64,000 nt of DNA from assembly GCA_963575645.1 (NCBI GenBank), contig OY754467.1:9734001-9798000 (forward strand), read 5' to 3'. Shown piece after piece: positions 5,009-63,602 of the stretch (positions are counted from its first letter, which is position 1; each line of letters begins with the position of its first letter). The position numbers and the translations under genes were made by a program. The notes beneath the pieces were generated by a model that was given only the letters and a program-made list of their open reading frames with translations, had not been told where the DNA came from and did not search any database. The DNA is from Xanthostigma xanthostigma (lineage: Eukaryota > Arthropoda > Insecta > Raphidioptera > Raphidiidae).

Positions 5009-6154
5009 GTACAAAAAAATATAAACAGAAAAAAGTGGTGAAAACTGAAAATTCGCTCTAGGAATCTTTAAAACTGTTCAATTACAGATAAAGTTACGAT
5101 TTTATTTATTTGAATTAATTGAGCTAACGTCTGTATAATTCATTAAAAAACAACTCTCACAGTAATGTAGATTTTGTAATCCGTTACTGTATATACAGAC
5201 ACCAGACAACCATACAATATTATATGTAAAATATATTCGTAAACAAATTCTTCAGCTTTATAATATATCAATATCGAGTATAGATAATGCCGATAATAAG
5301 TAGTAGCATTTCTGCGAAACAAATACGATATTTTGATGTTGTTGATGAGCTGATATCAACACCTTGTTGTTTTTGTCACCCTTACTTCCCCTTTTCTCAC
5401 AAAGCATCTGCCCTCGCCAGGGCTGTAGCTTACCACTAAAAAACATTTGATACTCTTTTTAACCGACTTAAGAAAAGAGGTTATCAATTCGTCACGTATA
5501 TATTTTTTGTTTGTTCAGCTTTCATTATTTTCGAAAGGTTAACCAATTTTTAAGAAACGTCGACGCTATATTTTGTTCAGAATGTTTTTCATACAAATTT
5601 TTAAATATATGTTATCTAATATCTCCAGCATTTGTGAACCAAGTTTGATGATTTATTTTCAGTTTGATACGACATATTACTTTCTGAGTGGTCTCATATA
5701 AATTTTACTTAAATCGGTTCAGCAGTTTTTTTTCTTTTAGCATTGAAATATTAAGAAAGGTCGTTAATAACGTGCAAATTATGTATTGCAAAGCCAGTAA
5801 GAAGTAAAAAATAAAAGTGATTTTAAAAAATTTTAGCCTCGTACAATAAATATCCTACTAAAATTCGAAAAATATAAAAGTTTTGAAGTCGACGCTAATT
5901 TAATTAAAATAATATATCTACAGATACATAAATAAGTAACATTACTTAAATTGGCGCTGACCCCAAAACTTTAAAATTTTACGCTTTGAGTGCCTTTTTT
6001 AAGGAGATTCATTTTTTAAAGTTTTTTTGTCATCTTACTTCCGCTTTTCTCACAAAGCAACTATTCTTGCCAGGGTTGTAGCTTACCAGTAAAAACATTG
6101 TGATGTTCTTTTGGTTAATGTTTTGCAAAAAAAAAAAATGAACATGCTTATATA
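5009..6154. other. Repeat fragments, no gene
   Basis: A block with CTTTTCTCACAAAGCA and CAGGGCTGTAGCTTACCA (about 5375-5450) recurs in the same orientation at about 6028-6105. From 5457 a TTTAACCGACTTAAGAAAAG segment begins that matches a repeat type I associate with Lepidoptera; its extent is unclear, perhaps to 5760. Confidence 0.55.
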
Positions 6155-7403
6155 GTTAAGGCCGCGGTGAAAAAAGTGCCTTGCAACTCCCAAACGGATG
6201 AGAAGCACGTTTTTGTATAGTTCGAGTGTCGTTCTCGAAATCCGTGTTGTCGAGTAGGGGTCTGACGTTCGGCGTTGAGCGGCTATAGTATTTTTTCCGA
6301 ATTTTGCCCAGCGGTTCCAAAAATCATTTCCCAAACGGATGAAAATTACTGGAGGGCATCTACGCAAACCCCCAATTACCGGAAAAATATTTTCATCCGA
6401 TTTGATCCTTGCCGTAGCCTGCAGTACAATTAAATGGACCCAGACTCCGAAATGAAAAAAATCATCAGCCGCATGCATGCAACCGGACTGATATGAATGG
6501 TTATTATTTATGTTATTAGAAAAAAAAGTTTTCATCCAAAATGCGCCTGGCTAAACTATGCCAAATAACAAAAAACCCCGCCAGCGCGCGTGATTTTGAT
6601 CCCGGAGTTCTCCGTAAATTTTCTACGAAATTTAGATGGAAGTTTCATAAACTTCTTTTTCTCTGGTTTAAAAATATTTTTAAAAAATTATATGCTCCCG
6701 AGTGGCGGTGAAATAGTGAGTGACTATTCAATGGTAAGTAAATATTTTTTAGGACAATAATACACAATTTGATTGTAATCGGCCTTTCCACATTAAAGAT
6801 TGAACATTCAGATCCTGCAGTTTCCCGTGATAATGAATATATCGGAGCATTATTATGGATGATCTGGACTTGACCGCAACAAATTTGGATGAAAATAATT
6901 TTTCGATGTTCTGTAGGTGTGAACCTGTGGGCAAATTTTCATCCATTTTGGAATTACTTTATCAAATTTGGCCCATTTAAATTTTTGAAAATTGTTACAA
7001 AGCGATCGCGATACATAGAGCAAAAAAAATTTTTTTACATATTCTCAGACACGAACTATATCTCCCTGCCAAATTTCAAGTTCAAATGAAGAAATTTTTT
7101 CCCCCCCTTTTTTCCATTTTTTTAGAGCTTCTGGAAGAGCTCTTTGCAAATATCAAATCGGATGAAAATATTTTTCCGGTAATTGGGGGTTTGCGTAGAT
7201 GCCCTCCAGTAATTTTCATCCGTTTGGGAAATGATTTTTGGAACCGCTGGGCAAAATTCGGAAAAAATACTATAGCCGCTCAACGCCGAACGCCAGACCC
7301 CTACTCGACAACACGGATTTCGAGAACGACACTCGAACTATACAAAAACGTGCTTCTCATCCGTTTGGGAGTTGCAAGGCACTTTTGTCACCGCGGCCCT
7401 AAC
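6155..7403. mobile_element. DNA transposon with long terminal inverted repeats, TA-flanked
   Basis: The ends are GTTAAGGCCGCGGTGA and the complement GTTAGGGCCGCGGTGA, each next to TA. The inverted arms are about 255 bp (6160-6420 and 7146-7398) and nearly identical, so this copy is young. The middle, about 720 bp, has no transposase. The arms produce matching open frames on opposite strands (6083-6535 minus, 7086-7406 plus), which are repeat artefacts rather than genes. A TA duplication fits Tc1/mariner-like or other TA-targeting superfamilies; the termini are not ones I can assign. Confidence 0.75.
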
Positions 7404-7428
7404 TAATATGAAAGCTCTGGAGAACTAA

Positions 7429-9868: not shown

Positions 9869-10022
9869 CTCTTCAAATAAATAAAATTGTCGACCAATTT
9901 TTCTCAGACCAATATATTGACAAAAAATAAAAAAATAACAAATCAATATAACACAAGATGACGTTTTTTTTTGTCAATATATTGGTCTGAGAAAAATTGG
10001 TCGACAATTTTATTTATTTGAA
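9869..10022. mobile_element. Penelope-like terminal fragments in inverted arrangement
   Basis: AAATAAATAAAATTGTCGAC followed by the 3'-terminal block occurs at about 9878-9922, and its inverted copy at about 9974-10020, head to head, around a short piece of the GATGACGTTT region. This matches the ends of the 37.5-38.3 kb element. It is a broken fossil. Confidence 0.7.
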
Positions 10023-19929: not shown

Positions 19930-20166
19930 CCATAACTTTGTTAAAAATAAATATACATAGTTTAAAGAAACTAAAAAACATGCTTTTATAGCACATCGAA
20001 CTAAAAAGTGAAAAATAATTCTTAATATAAGCAGAAAATAATAATGAACAAAAAATATTAGTATTATTGTGAAAAAAGCGCGAGGCGCTCGATATACGAA
20101 AAATATGGCACAAAGCGCCTCACGCTTTTTTCACAATAATACTAATATTTTTTGTTCATTATTATG
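19930..20166. mobile_element. Foldback hairpin family, copy 1
   Basis: Arms 20038-20080 and 20118-20166 pair almost perfectly around a loop with GCGCTCGATATACGAAAAAT. The left side continues with the family's outer blocks (CGAACTAAAAAGTGAAAAAT, AACTAAAAAACATGC); the right outer arm is missing. Related copies are at 46.3 and 62.6 kb. Confidence 0.8.
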
Positions 20167-20879
20167 TTTTTTTTTTCAAAATATGTACTAAGATATCGCA
20201 TAAGACACAAATTTATTTGCACCCATACGTCTATCCAAAAATAGTCCTAGGATTCCAAAACGTCCAGATCTGATGAACTCAATTTTCGAAAATCGGACCG
20301 AAACCATAACAATTTCCCTTATTTATGAAAATTTTCAATATCGGGAAGTTAAAATTGTCCTCATTGAATTTTCAAAGTACACATTCCTACTGGAAGCACT
20401 GCGATACAACCAGGGCTGTACTCATCCGATTTTTTCCCACAAAAAAATCAAACGTGTCCTGAGAACCAAGCAGCAGTGCAATCCGAAGAATTCTAGAACT
20501 TGACCAACCACCGCACCTAGTACAATCGGGGCATTTTTAGGTCGCGGACGTCGCTGACTGTACACTTTCTTACTCTTATTTCAGTCGGTCTAAATATGAA
20601 CGAAATAATCCTTTAGTTTGTCACTGTCACTTTATTTTAGCGCTCAACAAATTTTCTTTGACAGTGAAAACGAGTTTCTGAAAGACGATATGATGATGAT
20701 GATGATGGTCTTGCGATCACAGAACTACAGACGTTGACGCAAAAAGCTAGGCGACCCTATCTGCAAGGCGTTGATATTTGTGGCCGCGAGGCAAAGTAGG
20801 CTTTCAAGGGAGGACGTTACGTTTGTGTGCGTTAGAAGGCGACGTCTAGGGCGAAATTTAGGTAGTATTTCGTTAGGTG
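20167..20879. other. Unassigned, with GATGAT microsatellite
   Basis: A short GAT run lies at 20690-20706. The 76-codon frame at 20273-20503 matches nothing I recognise. Confidence 0.4.
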
Positions 20880-33911: not shown

Positions 33912-34140
33912 CAGTATAGCGGCCCGGTTCGGCTTCGCCTGAGTTTGTAGATTGCCACCGTTTTTTCGTCGAATTACGTTGCAAAATTGGCCGCCATGAA
34001 AAGCGCTTTTATATTAACGCGATAATATATAGCCTATGTCCATCCTAAAGTTTCATTCTAAATATTCGTGAAAAAAATTTTGAAATCGGATGAGTAGTTT
34101 CGGAGATTACCTCGCACATTTAAACTCACAAACTATGCGG
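33912..34140 (-). mobile_element. Helitron family B fragment
   Basis: On the minus strand it matches 38308-38528: AAATCGGATGAGTAGTTTCG complement and a terminal GGGCCGCTA. Both ends are incomplete. Confidence 0.65.
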
Positions 34141-34845
34141 AGCATTTCATATAGAACAGTATTGCGAGCCACGTCTTTTTTTAAATATTTATTGTTTACA
34201 ATTATGGAAGTTTCACAGGTGATTGGAAAATCGAAGAAGCAGCAAGATATATGTTGTGCAGGACTTAATTTTGTTAGTATAATAATAATAATAATAAAAA
34301 GAAAAGTAGTGACGAAACATTTGTGAAAAAAAAGCTTCTTTACATAAATGTGAATTAACTGAGTAAGAACCGCTGTGCTTTAAATATATTGGTATGTATT
34401 TGGGCATCCCTGGCAAGCACATGTATGGTTCGAAGTTCGGACGAAGTCCGCGGGTGAGTTACAATTTATACCAATCCTGAACATACGGCTCTATACGTTT
34501 CATTTGAGATATATTGCTTTTATACCAAAAAGGGCTTGTCCTACACTGAGAAAGAGCGCGGATGGGTGGGGAAGGGGGTGCCGGCGCGCTGGGGGGAACG
34601 GAGCACTGTATAAGACGTGGGACGGTCGCTCGACTCCTCGCCGGCACCTTCCTTCCCATTCGGCTCAGTTCAGTCATAATACGAACACATTGATTCTTTA
34701 TGTCTGATTTCACATAAAGCACCCGCAGTGTTTGTGTTACACTGCAAGTTGACTTTAACGACCATACACTGTAAAAAATAAATGTTCGAGACTAGAGTAA
34801 TGGCGCTCTTCAGTAAGGTCAATGTTAAAATTAACAGCGCTACTA
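34141..34845. other. Unassigned, with GC-rich block at 34540-34690
   Basis: GGGAAGGGGGTGCCGGCGCG near 34571, then TGTATAAGACG and, about 60 bp on, TCAGTTCAGTC. A promoter is possible but the spacing is poor. An AATAAT run lies at 34280-34297. Confidence 0.3.
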
Positions 34846-37461
34846 CTAGGCCGGTCATATCTAACATTAAACTCGCAAACTAACATGTAGTTCTGATTTT
34901 TTAATATGTTGTTAGGACCACTACCAGTAGCGTATATCCAAGTTTGCAGCTTCGAAAGACCTGTGCTAACTTTGCAGCACTCAAAAAACTGCGAAATTTT
35001 CGCACAATTTTTGGTATTCTCAATGTAGATCTTAAACTATGCATTTTTTTATAAAATATTTTTTATACGTTTTTAAGTAGACTAAAATTTCTACAATTTG
35101 AGACCAGAACCAGCTCTGTAGGTTCAATACTTACCACGATACAGCTTTCCAAAAATTGACCAGTTTTTTCAAAAAAGTGAAATTTTAAGATTTGGTCAAT
35201 TTTTGACCCCGATATCGGGGAAAATACTCATTTTAAGGGTAATATCATAGGAACATATATTGTAGCAAATGTAATTAGCTTTAATTTAAGCAGAGAACGA
35301 CGTCTGTAGGCCATATAGTTTACTCACAAATTTTAAAAATCCAAAAAATGAGAAAACTGCATTTTCGCAAATTTAAATTTAATACCTAGTAATCGTTATG
35401 TAAATCCATTCAGTGATTTTAATGTGGTTGAGTAACAAAATTGAGTAACATAGTAGCATAAACGAGTAACATAATAAAAAAAATAACATAACTGATAACA
35501 TCATAAAAAAATTATGCAGTTTTTGACAAAATACCGTCGTATTTCAGCTATTTTGTAAAAAATATTTACAAATTATATTCATGAACCTTCCTCGTTTATC
35601 GCTCTTTCTATTACCGAAAACAATTTCAAAATTCGGTGCGTGGTTTAGTACAAGAGAGCGGAGAAAAAGACAAGAGACTTTGTTTTTAACTATGCAGTCT
35701 TTGACAAAATACCGTCGTATTTCAGCCATTTTGAAAAAATATTTACAAATTGTATACAGAAACCTTCCTCGTATATTTTTCTGTCTATTAGCGAAAACCA
35801 TTTCAAGATCCGGTGCGTGGTTTAGAAGAAATGAGCGGAGAAAAAGACAAAGATAGGCAGACTCTCTGTTTATAACTATGTAGTCTTTGCTAAAACACCG
35901 TCGCTGTTCTGGCATTTTGTAAAAAATATTTACAAAATATATACAGAAACTTTCCTTGTTTATCGCTCTTCCGACTACCGAAAAGCATTTCAAGATTTAG
36001 TTCATGGCTTAGAAGAAGTGAGCTGAGAAAAAGACAAAGACAGACAGAGGATCTATTTTTAACTATGCAGTCTGAGCTAAAACACTGTCGTAGTTCAGGC
36101 ATTTTGTAAAAACTATTTACAAATTATATACAGAAACCTTCCTTGCTTATCGCTCTTTCTATTACCGAAAACCATTTTAAGATACGGCGCATAGTTTAGA
36201 AGAACACCGACGGTGTTTTGTCAAAGACTGCATAGTTAAAAACAGTCTCTGCCTGTCCTTGCCCTTTTCTCCGCTCACTTCTTCTAAACCATGCGCCGGA
36301 TCTAAAAATGGTTTTTGGTAGTAGAAAGAGCAATAAACGAGGAAAGTTTATGTATATAATTTATAAATATTTTTTACAAAATGCCTGAACTACGACGGAA
36401 TTTTAGCAAAGACTCTATAGTTAAAATCAGAGTCTCAGACTGTCTTTGTCTTTTTCACCGCTCACTTCTTCTAAACCACGCACCGGATTTTGAAATGATT
36501 TTCGCTAATAGGAAGATCAATATACGAGGAAGGTTTCTGTATACCATTTGTAAATATTTTTTTCAAAATGGCTGAAATGCGACGGTATTTTGTCAAAGAC
36601 TGCATAGTTAAAAACAAAGTCTCTGTCTTTTTCTCCGCTCTCTTCTACTAAACCACGCACCGGATTTTGAAATTGTCTTCGGTAATAGAAAGAGCGATAA
36701 ACGAGGAAGGTTCATAAATATAATTTGTAAATATTTTTTACAAAATGGCTGAAATACGACGGTATTTTGTCAAAAACTGCATAATTTTTTTATGATGTTA
36801 TCAATTATGTTATTTTTTTTATTATGTTACTCGTTTATGCTACTATGTTACTCAATTTTGTTACTCAACCACATTAAAATCACTGAATGGATTTACAGAA
36901 CGATTACTAGGTATTAAATTTAAATTTGCGAAAATGCAGTTTTCTCATTTTTTGGATTTTTAAAATTTGTGAGTAAACTATATGGCCTACAGACGTCGTT
37001 CTCTGCTTAAATTAAAGCTAATTACATTTGCTACAATATATGTTCCTATGATATTACCCTTAAAATGAGTATTTTCCCCGATATCGGGGTCAAAAATTGA
37101 CCAAATCTTAAAATTTCACTTTTTTGAAAAAACTGGTCAATTTTTGGAAAGCTGTATCTTGGTAAGTATTAAACCTACAGAGCTGGTTCTGGTCTCAAAT
37201 TGTAGCAATTGTAGTCTACTTAAAAACGTATAAAAAATATTTTATAAAAAAATGCATAGTTTAAGATCTATATTGAGAATACCAAAAATTGTGCGAAAAT
37301 TTCGCAGTTTTTTGAGTACTGCAAAGTTAGCACAGGTCTTTCGAAGCTGCAAACTTGGATATACGCTACTGGTAGTGGTCCTAACAACATATTAAAAAAT
37401 CAGAACTACATGTTAGTTTGCGAGATTAGCGATTTTTAGTGTAAAATATGACTGGGCTATA
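34846..37461. mobile_element. Giant foldback element, about 2.55-kb palindrome with tandem-repeat arms
   Basis: 34872-36195 and 36196-37424 are inverted copies of each other. The ends are CTCGCAAACTAACATGTAGT; weaker similarity continues outward through GTCATAT to about 34846 and 37461. The outer ~640 bp of each arm is single-copy. Inside lie tandem units of about 177-187 bp, recognisable by ACCTTCCTCGTTTATCGCTC: four on the left (about 35584, 35761, 35947, 36133) and at least three inverted on the right (about 36340, 36525, 36705). The arms differ by scattered substitutions and small indels, which argues against an assembly fold-back artefact. Long arms with inner tandem repeats recall Foldback/Galileo-type elements. 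No transposase is present, so the superfamily is inferred only. Confidence 0.85.
35500..36795. repeat. Tandem repeats forming the palindrome's inner arms
   Basis: Each unit is open in one frame for about 60 codons when read outward from the centre, giving related peptides such as RRYFVKDCIVKN and GRFLYTICKYF. Unit spacing of 187 bp is not a multiple of three, so no frame runs through all units. I regard these as non-coding. Confidence 0.7.
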
Positions 37462-37634
37462 CATTTCTATCTCACTTTAACTTATTGTGTAATGTTAAAT
37501 CTATACTAATATAAAGAGGTAAAATTCAAATCTTTGACTAACATCTGAATAGAACTCTTCAAATAAATAAAATTATCGAACAATTTTTTTCAGACAAAAA
37601 TAATAAAATTATAAATCAATATTTCACTAGATGA

Positions 37635-37664
37635 CGTTTCGATCCGGATTTGGATCTTCTTCAG
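37635..37664 (-). ncRNA. Hammerhead-like motif in Penelope-like terminal region
   Basis: The minus strand reads CTGAAGA, A, GATCC, AAATCC, GGATC, GAAAC. The conserved boxes CUGANGA and GAAA flank a perfect 5-bp stem II. One extra A lies before stem II compared with the canonical core, and stems I and III are weak, so cleavage is uncertain. Hammerheads are known in Penelope-like elements. Confidence 0.45.
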
Positions 37665-37888
37665 AAATAATCTAAAAAATATAAAAATTAATTAGTATAT
37701 CTACTTATTTTCTAATTGAATGGAGTTTGAATTATCGAAATATTAATGAAAAATTAATAACAAACAATTTTTTTAAAGTAGTCATGGATATCTATGTACC
37801 TAAAAAGAAAGAATAAATTCATTTAAAACAAAATATTATTTCAAAATAATATCATAAATGTTACTTAAATTTTCCGTATCTATAATTA

Positions 37889-38110
37889 TTATTGAGTATT
37901 AAGAGAATTTTTATTAGATTTTATATATAACATTTCCGAAATACCTCTTTTAAAGAAATTTGTTTCATTATCTAAAATTTTTATATTATCCCAATTAATT
38001 TTGTGGTCGTATTCGAATTTGTGTTTTGTTTCGACATTATACTTGTCAGGGAGTAATTTATGGTTGTTTTGGTGCTCTTTTATTCTTGTAGTTTGCCCAA
38101 TATAATTCAT
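37889..38110 (-). pseudogene. GIY-YIG endonuclease remnant of a Penelope-like element
   Basis: About 73 codons. NYIGQTTR near the start matches the YIG part of the GIY-YIG motif, followed by IKEHQNNH and the family's C-terminal pattern ILDNETNFFKRGISEMLYIK and NSLNTQ. In intact elements this domain nicks target DNA for reverse transcription. Only the C-terminal end is here. Related remnants lie at 56740-56990 and 63807-63870. Confidence 0.75.
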
Positions 38111-38566
38111 ATCACAATTTTCACAACTAATTTTGTAAACAACATTATGTTTTTGTAATTTATTTAATTTATCCTTTCCCTTTTAAATAATTTTGTCTAG
38201 TTTATTATTATCTAGTGAAATATTGATTTAGGTATAATTTTATTATTTTTGTCAATATATAGTCTGAAAAAAATTGGTCGCTAATTTGATTTAAATAAAG
38301 AGGTAAAGTTTGTAAGTTTGGATGTAGGAGATAATCTCCGAAACTACTCATCCGATTTCAAAAATTTTTTCACCAATATTTTGAATGGATCTTCAGGATG
38401 GGCATAGTATATATATTATCACGTTAAAATACTAAAAGCGCTTTTCGTGTAGACCAATTTTGCAATGTAAGTCGACGGAAAAACGGTGGCAATTTACAAA
38501 TTCGCACGAAGTCGGATCGGGTCGCTAGTTTTTTAGAAAGTGACAAAAAATTGACAATGATCCTAA

Positions 38567-39119
38567 AGCGGCCCATAGACGCTTAATATTATTGTGCAAT
38601 GTGGGTTGCACAATATTTTGACGGCGGCCCCTAGACGGTCAATATTATTGTACAATATTTTGTTTTGTGCAAAAAATTGTACTGTATGGAGGCGATATTG
38701 AAGGTTGTGCAATATATTGCTCAATTGCGAGCACAGACGGTACAGCCACATTGTGCAAACAGTCCCCACCAGAACTTCAGTCATCATGTTGTCACGATTA
38801 CTATAGTTTTTGGACTTCACATCCCACAGAGCCGGAAGACCACGATACACCTGGATAAATTCGATAATAAATTGTCTTTCGGTTTTCTTGTCACCCATGA
38901 TGAGGCGTAGTTGAGACGACTTGTTGAAACGACCGCTACTTGAGATCAACTGACGGATATTGCGCAATCTTGACAACAGACGGCACAATAGTTCCCCGTT
39001 TGTGCAATATATTTTCAAGATTTTGAAAATCACACAATATATTGCGCAACCTACACACGGTAAATTATATTGCACAAACCCAAATATTGCGAAATAATAT
39101 TGAGCATCTATGGGCCGCT
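38567..39119 (-). mobile_element. PIF/Harbinger-derived element carrying a MADF fragment
   Basis: The ends are AGCGGCCCATAGACGCTTAA and complement AGCGGCCCATAGATGCTCAA, flanked by TAA on both sides (38564-38566, 39120-39122). The interior is full of TTGTGCAATAT repeats, inverted around a central coding remnant. 553 bp, no transposase. Confidence 0.85.
38763..38898 (-). pseudogene. MADF (Myb/SANT-like) domain fragment
   Basis: From the ATG complement at 38896-38898 the minus frame reads MGDKKTERQFIIEFIQVYR, then GLPALWDVKSKNYSNRD and MMTEVLV. This fits the N-terminal half of a MADF domain: conserved FI..Y, the P.LWD signature and the Y.NR stretch. PIF/Harbinger transposons encode such a DNA-binding protein beside their transposase. 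After about 45 residues the frame continues into terminal repeat sequence with no domain match, so the second half of MADF is lost. A larger frame upstream (to 39075) is repeat sequence. Whether this start is genuine or the fragment is expressed cannot be told. Confidence 0.7.
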
Positions 39120-39633
39120 TAAGAGTCCGCCGTTAAAAAAGACTGTTGTATATAGCGACATCGACACTAAATGAGGCGCCAGGGCCTGCTTTAATACTCT
39201 CAAACGCTAGTATTTTTCAGCAAATTTTCAGGTGAATTCAAGCTGTAAACAGGCAGTCAGTAATCAAAAAGGTAGAAGCGAAGAAAACTTCGTTAGTTAA
39301 AATTAGATTTACATATAAAATGGGTATATAGTGAAGAACAAAGATATAACCATGAAATGTGTCTCAGTTCGAGGGAGGCATATAGGTCTACATGTTGTTT
39401 AATACATTTATATATTAAGATGAATGCTTATACAGTTAGAAACCGAATTCCAGTGCTCGTCAAACTGTGCTGCCCAAAGTCTCAGACGTTTGCGAATGTA
39501 AGATACACGAAACACATGTTTTTAATTTTTCTTATTAAAATTTATTATTTTACATTTTTAATTGCCGAGCAATTGACAAAAAATAATTGTTTTTACATAT
39601 AAAATTCCAATAGCTTGGTGGCGTGAGCAAAGA
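39120..39633. other. Nothing identified
   Basis: Frame 39357-39602 has no family match. Confidence 0.4.
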
Positions 39634-43133: not shown

Positions 43134-43280
43134 TATATGTTACGGTTAATACAAGAAAGTAGTTAATTCGCGAATTAATCGGCTAATACCTGAATTAACC
43201 AATCCTTGACGTTGGTTAATTCGGGTATTAGCCGGTTAATTCGCGAATAAACTACTTTCTTGTATTAACCGTAACATATA
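43134..43280. repeat. Long near-perfect hairpin
   Basis: 69-bp arms (43134-43202 and 43212-43280) pair at about 66 positions around the 9-bp loop TCCTTGACG. It begins inside the target duplication of the adjacent hAT-like MITE. 43281-43694 holds nothing else. Confidence 0.85.
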
Positions 43281-46160: not shown

Positions 46161-46174
46161 CTCAAACTAAAAAG

Positions 46175-46400
46175 TGAAAAATAAAATATAGTTTAAAAAA
46201 AACTAAAAAACACGCTTTATATCGGACTAAAAAGTAAAAAATAATTGTTTTAAAATAAGCTTAAAAAGCGTTGGGCGCTCGATGTACGAAAATGTGGAAC
46301 AAAGCGCCCCACGCTTTTTAAGCTTATTTTAAAACAATTATTTTTTACTTTTTAGTCCGATATAAAGCGTGTTTTTTAGTTTTTTTTAAACTATATTTTA
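46175..46400. mobile_element. Foldback hairpin family, copy 2
   Basis: Almost perfect arms of about 95 bp (AACTAAAAAACACGC, CGGACTAAAAAGTAAAAAAT, AAGCTTAAAAAGCG) surround a loop GCGCTCGATGTACGAAAATG. Confidence 0.9.
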
Positions 46401-46718
46401 TTCTATATAAATTTTTATAAAATATTTTTCTATATAAATTTGTATAAAAAAACTGTTTAGGCAAATTCTGTTATACGAAATCTATGTAAAATGTTCTCCT
46501 CTTTCGTTTAAGACTGGTTTCAAACCGATCTGATTTAAATTGAGCGAGAAATTAGCAAAAAGCACGCACAGGGTCAGGCGGAACGTTACGCGTTAGGAAC
46601 GTTACGCGTTAGGAACGTTAGGAACGTTACGTTACACTTTTTCGAACATGCAGCCGGTGTTTTATCAATTTATAATATTGGTGATTCATCAATTTATAAG
46701 ACGTTATCACGTCAAAAA

Positions 46719-53649: not shown

Positions 53650-53824
53650 GACAACTCTCTTTTATTTTAACGCAATAATATATAGCCTATGTTCATCCTG
53701 AAAGTCTATTCTAAAAATTGCTGAAAAAAAATTGAAATCGGATAAGTAGTTTCTGAGATTACCCTCCGCATATAGGTACACAAACTCACAAAATTCGCAC
53801 TCTCTCTTTGTAATATTAGTATAA
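53650..53824 (-). mobile_element. Helitron family B fragment, 5' part
   Basis: The minus strand begins TACTAATATTACAAAGAGAG and matches the family to the CGCAATAATATATAGCCTAT block. Confidence 0.65.
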
Positions 53825-62404: not shown

Positions 62405-62850
62405 CTTGGTTAAATACAAAAATATAGTTTAAAAAAAACTAAAAATCACGCTTTATATCAAACTAAAAAGTGAAAAATAAATATAGTTTAAAAAAAACTA
62501 AAAAACACGATTTATATCGAACTAAAAAGTAAAAAATATTTTTTTTAAATAAGCTTAAAACAATAATGAATAAAAAATACCAGTATTATTGTGAAAAAAG
62601 CGGGGGGCGCTTTGTTCCACATTTTCGTAAATCGAGCGCCCCACGTTTTTTTCACAATAATACTAGTATTTTTTATTCATTATTGTTTTAAGCTTATTTT
62701 AATAAAAATATTTTTTACTTTTTAGTTCGATATAAAACGTGTTTTTTAGTTTTTTTTAAACTATATTTATTTTTCACTTTTTAGTTTGATATATACTTAA
62801 AGCGTGTTTTTTAGTTTTTTTTAAACTATATTTATTTTCCACCTTTTAGT
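62405..62850. mobile_element. Foldback hairpin family, copy 3, loop reversed
   Basis: Arms of about 200 bp, each with two outer units (AACTAAAAAACACG...GAACTAAAAAGTAAAA), centre near 62613. The loop reads GGCGCTTTGTTCCACATTTT, the reverse complement of the loops at 20.09 and 46.29 kb. Confidence 0.9.
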
Positions 62851-62897
62851 TCGATTTATTGTCAAAAATTTGCCGAAAAAAAACAAATTTTTTATTT

Positions 62898-62990: not shown

Positions 62991-63056
62991 TTATAGTAGT
63001 GGCATAACATACTAACAGTAATAAACCACTTGCTGTAGTCCAAACGAGGTTTCAAA

Positions 63057-63126
63057 CAAACAAACATACATACATACATACATACATACATACATACATA
63101 CATACATACATACATACATACATACA
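63057..63126. repeat. (CATA)n microsatellite
   Basis: About 16 units after a short CAAA run. Confidence 0.95.
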
Positions 63127-63185
63127 AACTTACAAGTGAAACTAATGTAAAGCGTGTAATATTAAGAACACTGTGGTTGAAACAA

Positions 63186-63317: not shown

Positions 63318-63602
63318 ACTTGGTTAAATGTACTTTTTTGTCACTTTCTAATAAGTTTAACATCACACAAGTGAAAGGGAGACACGAATTTAACAGCGCT
63401 GTTCATTTTAACATCGACCATACAGAATAGTGAAGTTTTGTTTTGCCCGGCAGTGCCAACTGTATAGTGTTTTTGGTGAGTGGAGATATAGAATTGATGT
63501 ATGTCAACGATATGGGTAGAAAAGCGAACAGGCGTTTTATCCTAGCCTACGATATATTATATGTTACAGGAAATGTAATATTCTTGAAATAAAAAGAATA
63601 AC
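63318..63602. other. Nothing identified
   Basis: Short single-copy stretch without frames. Confidence 0.4.

Follow-up and report, generated by a model that had tools for sequence, protein, structure and literature searches.

Transposons of the foldback type, built around long inverted repeats, are hot spots of ectopic recombination and have been sources of both inversions (Galileo, DAIBAM) and satellite DNA (Tetris). Long-inverted-repeat palindromes also occur on transposons of the TA/TNA type, as in Tc4 and Tc6 of C. elegans. The described families with which the present locus can be compared differ in the duplications found at their target sites. Tetris, from Drosophila virilis, has target duplications of 8-10 bp, on which its assignment to Mutator is based (PMC4079207), and Tm1 of root-knot nematodes, a Mutator/foldback element, has a duplication of mostly 9 bp (PMC3169594). 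Galileo, a Drosophila element of the P superfamily, has duplications of 7-8 bp with the consensus GTATTAC (PMC4168063). The PHIS superfamily (PIF/Harbinger, ISL2EU, Spy) has TWA, AT or no duplication, and the tips of ISL2EU usually begin with GG (PMC4482050). Finally, the ATon MITEs of Aedes aegypti have a shared end, ATAGGCC (PMC3422177).

Here, we analyse a large palindrome in a 64,000-nucleotide stretch of Xanthostigma xanthostigma DNA (hereafter, the window). With a probability of roughly 0.8, we read it as a single copy of a non-autonomous, gene-less foldback-type (long-inverted-repeat) DNA transposon that occupies positions 34849-37457 and was moved in trans. It is a new example of the known "foldback" plan rather than a genetic system of a new kind. 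How tandem arrays in foldback arms originate and are homogenized could be tested further with an additional family of this design, and the mosaic of arm differences described below is sharp enough to place a breakpoint within the second repeat unit; otherwise, repeats like this one are ordinary in a eukaryotic genome rich in transposons.

Architecture of the palindrome and its surroundings

The palindrome consists of two mirror-image arms of about 1.25 kb each, and the element as delimited above measures 2,609 bp. Each arm has an outer domain, followed inward by an array of tandem repeats:

34872-35509, + strand: left outer (flanking) arm domain, 638 bp, 98-99% identical to the right arm and, apart from that arm, found nowhere else in the window
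35510-36204, + strand: left tandem array, with units at 35510-35686 (177 bp), 35687-35873 (187 bp) and 35874-36060 (187 bp) and a partial unit at 36061-36204 (~144 bp)
36097-36201, no strand: unpaired centre, 105 bp, taking in most of the fourth, partial unit of the left array (from the arm alignment)
36201-36786, - strand: right tandem array, with a partial unit at 36201-36237 (37 bp) and units at 36238-36422 (185 bp), 36423-36609 (187 bp) and 36610-36786 (177 bp)
36787-37424, - strand: right outer (flanking) arm domain, 638 bp (from the arm alignment)

The tandem units, 177-187 bp long, number 3.7 in the left arm versus 3.2 in the right, and the two arrays are of unequal length. Ungapped inverted repeats join 34868-35672 to 36624-37428 (805 nt, 98% complementary) and 35673-35739 to 36558-36624 (67 nt, 99%), with the match falling to 83-85% further inward; when gaps are allowed, 34847-36096 is paired with 37459-36202. 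RNA folding of the 2,609-nt element gave -1874 kcal/mol, versus -539 kcal/mol for one shuffle, and the predicted pairs lie near mirror positions in 1,209 of 1,209 cases. Any transcript through the element is predicted to form a hairpin of about 1.2 kb, which could feed siRNA silencing.

The preliminary description of this DNA had placed the palindrome at 34846-37461, wide coordinates that stand once the weak repeat at the tips (see below) is counted. The alignment also bears out its outer arms of ~640 bp, and the repeats of 177-187 bp that it had seen in both inner arrays can be delimited unit by unit on the left and on the right. The terminus that it gave, CTCGCAAACTAACATGTAGT, was found at 34872-34891, with the reverse complement at 37405-37424, and the structure is indeed the largest symmetric one in the window. 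The term "near-perfect", however, fits only the outer ~900 bp, since identity drops to about 83% in the inner arms and to about 78% over the outermost 23 bp.

Pfam searches in six frames of the 31.0-41.0 kb region, and with the longest open reading frames, uncovered no significant domain and no transposase, including none of the P superfamily, which a non-autonomous copy would lack anyway. An open reading frame within the array (35544-35996) was considered as a gene and rejected, its best match being a sub-threshold one to DUF4261 (E 0.036). Rfam and tRNA scans returned nothing, and exact words from the terminus, an inner unit and an outer arm had no match in viral and prokaryote contigs, as expected for a eukaryote. 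Literature searches with the terminal strings led to no transposon paper and to no match of the ends, and a search with TAGGCC likewise to no paper with that string.

Other repeats and smaller palindromes are dense in the window, so that a foldback element is at home in it. One family of smaller palindromes (62420-62860; related copies at 46162-46402 and 19949-20170) has tandem repeats with 59- and 65-bp periods in its arms (62420-62538, 62733-62859); this is the plan of the big palindrome in miniature, in an unrelated sequence. A 260-bp inverted repeat (6153-6412 / 7146-7405, starting GGCCGCGGTGA), 98% alike with its halves 733 bp apart, is likely another long-TIR element. Two inverted segments of about 220 bp, 84% alike, flank the big palindrome itself (33917-34134 / 38307-38527); they are also related to 53659-53763, and probably represent two oppositely oriented copies of another repeat. 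A short AT-rich palindrome with CGCGAATTAA motifs lies at 43134-43280 (69-bp arms, 96% alike, with a 9-bp spacer), and an (ACAT)n microsatellite, some 20 units long, at 63056-63134.

Two neighbouring segments carry reading frames. A repeat at 37560-38300 (- strand), with relatives at 9872, 40878, 56388 and 63603, contains GATGACGTTTCGATCC; its frame VYKISCENCDMNYIGQT...IKEHQNNHK resembles by eye the GIY-YIG end of Penelope-like retroelements, a likeness that Pfam and PDB sequence searches did not bear out. The 189-aa frame at 38563-39132 (- strand) has a sub-threshold match to MADF (Myb/SANT-like) at 38563-39129 (profile positions 1-24, E 0.005); it may represent a first exon, or else what is left of an accessory gene of the Harbinger type.

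Ends of the element and its insertion site

The similarity between the arms ends at a TA on both sides (34847/37459), and the following features define the ends and the site of insertion:

34847-34848, no strand: TA adjoining the left tip, a candidate 2-bp target duplication, or else the start of the element, in which case TAC at 34844-34846 would be duplicated
34849-34871, + strand: left terminal inverted repeat, 23 bp, GGCCGGTCATATCTAACATTAAA, with 18 of 23 positions equal to the reverse complement of 37435-37457
37425-37434, no strand: segment unique to the right arm, 10 bp, ATTAGCGATT
37435-37457, - strand: right terminal inverted repeat, 23 bp, GCCCAGTCATATTTTACACTAAA on the - strand
37458-37459, no strand: TA adjoining the right tip, followed by TAC at 37460-37462
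63356-63430, - strand: diverged paralogous empty site, an uninterrupted relative of the palindrome's two flanks

Because TA is its own complement, two boundary readings would fit equally: an element at 34849-37457 with a duplication of TA, or one at 34847-37459 with a duplication of TAC. For random pairs of positions in the window, the chance of TA on both sides is 1% and that of an identical 3-mer 2.4%. The TA/TAC at both tips supports a target duplication, without proving one. The tip repeat has no further copies in the window beyond chance.

The two flanks of the palindrome, when joined, align to the single uninterrupted sequence at 63430-63356 with a score of 89, versus 52 for the left flank alone, 50 for the right flank alone and 43 for the best of 200 shuffles; blastn across the joint gave 73% over 83 columns (E 1.7e-8). 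The palindrome thus interrupts an older repeat. The joint is 7 nt longer than the empty relative, and a duplication of 2 bp would require a 5-nt indel; since the ends are set by one diverged empty site, and by a joint with 7 extra nucleotides, the exact target duplication is uncertain. The foldback reading put forward in the preliminary description survives in part: the paralogous empty site shows that the palindrome was inserted, and did not arise by simple inverted duplication, but membership in Foldback or Galileo finds no support. No 7-10 bp duplication was found beside either plausible pair of ends.

A longer duplication can be proposed further out, where the 9-bp direct repeat AATGTTAAA is present in the flanks at 34821-34829 and 37491-37499. 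If this were the target duplication, the locus would be a Mutator-type (MULE) foldback at 34830-37490, with non-inverted outer ends as in Tm1. The direct repeat around the palindrome is perfect, the majority of foldbacks are considered MULEs (PMC4079207), and the tips of Tm1 are asymmetric outside the inverted repeat (PMC3169594). However, the uninterrupted relative at 63 kb carries both copies, as GATGTTAAA, along with the sequence between and outside them, and the repeat therefore probably predates the insertion. In addition, a search of about 10,000 pairs in AT-rich flanks can give such a word by chance, and the similarity near the terminal inverted repeats stops at 34847/37459. We have set AATGTTAAA aside as a target duplication, and consider a MULE origin unlikely.

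Another proposal would be that ordinary or satellite-like DNA underwent a local inverted duplication, through replication template switching, and was not mobile. In favour of this, no second copy of the palindrome was found in the window (the outer domain recurs only as the other arm), and the locus is without a transposase or a long target duplication. The empty paralogous site argues against this origin, as do the short terminal inverted repeat adjoining TA and a plan that is that of known foldback transposons, and we regard such a duplication as quite improbable. The single copy nonetheless calls for caution in the transposon reading itself, in that repetition, the hallmark of transposons, rests on no second site.

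Divergence between the arms

The arms differ by a total of 73 substitutions, plus 19 gap columns, and these differences are distributed non-uniformly. Mismatches fall into three steps, with 5 of 21 positions at the tips, 15 of 909 in the outer body and 53 of 317 inside, and the inner breakpoint lies at 35778, midway through unit 2. A three-segment division gives a likelihood gain of 47 (Fisher 4e-5 and 2e-20), and a two-segment division a gain of 38, versus at most 9 in 200 permutations. Unit by unit, identity between the left and right arrays is 97% for L1/R1, 91% for L2/R2 (98% in the first half and 85% in the second) and 82% for L3/R3, with L4 being the closest match of R3.

This mosaic suggests arm-to-arm conversion of the outer arms together with turnover of the arrays, which would have slipped out of mirror register through unequal exchange. 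The likeness of the outer arms may instead reflect a recent re-duplication of the outer arm, which a single copy leaves inseparable from conversion. Although long palindromes are commonly assembly artefacts, a concern of the preliminary description, so structured a mosaic would be hard to obtain from a fold-back read or a mis-join, which is expected to yield identical arms, and together with the unequal arrays, and with differing flanks that belong together, it makes such an origin extremely improbable.

How might a foldback-type transposon, the reading that we favour, have arrived and evolved here? A transposase made elsewhere would bind its tips, perhaps the arms as well, and transfer it by cut-and-paste to a site that contains TA. 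Later, gene conversion from arm to arm could keep about 900 bp of the arms alike, and unequal exchange could turn over the inner tandem units, giving rise to the asymmetric centre.

Comparison with known systems

The locus has the structure of the foldback class, namely long inverted repeats that contain tandem repeats and enclose little or no middle, and its insertion as a discrete unit is indicated by the diverged empty paralogue. It works like Tetris, but we place it by structural class only, and claim no membership in Tetris, Foldback or Galileo.

The likeness to Tetris is one of plan, drawn from the published description and not from a sequence comparison. In both, AT-rich tandem repeats (~220 bp in Tetris versus 177-187 bp here), variable in number, lie inward of a flanking domain (at most 866 bp in Tetris, 638 bp here), the number of units differs by side, and there is no ORF (PMC4079207). 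Tetris has a middle domain, and in some copies an extra inner domain, whereas there is almost no middle here; it also has duplications of 8-10 bp, versus a match of TA or TAC here (PMC4079207). No match of 8-10 bp, of the Tetris or Mutator type, was found at any plausible pair of ends. Tm1 likewise has composite inverted repeats, internal tandem repeats and short tips that are unequal between the ends, but its tandem motif is 14 bp, its duplication 9 bp, and its tips are CGGTTAA/CCTACCC (PMC3169594).

Galileo shares the foldback-like long inverted repeats, and one D. willistoni copy has tandem repeats of ~140 bp in its arms; unlike in Galileo, neither the duplication nor a transposase, which is present elsewhere in the Galileo family, was found here (PMC4168063). 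Where a Galileo-type duplication of 7-8 bp would lie, three of seven positions at the tips are identical.

Among systems with shorter duplications, a TA abutting each tip (1% by chance) would be compatible with the TA duplication of Tc1/mariner, but TAC/TAC fits equally well. With respect to PHIS, the left tip starts with GG and the right with GC, and the tips have no TWA or AT duplication (PMC4482050). The ATon elements are less than 500 bp long, lack foldback arms and insert at AT, and the joint of the empty paralogue here is too diverged to read; however, the ends of the present element, CTAGGCC and ATAGCCC, each match ATAGGCC at six of seven positions, a 7-base likeness that serves as a lead only (PMC3422177). 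Tentatively, and at somewhat less than even odds, we suggest a foldback lineage with satellite-like arm arrays, from a superfamily that makes 2-3 bp duplications (TA or TAC), such as Tc1/mariner, PHIS or the orphan ATon, rather than from Mutator or P, in which the outer 900 bp would have been kept alike by arm-to-arm conversion.
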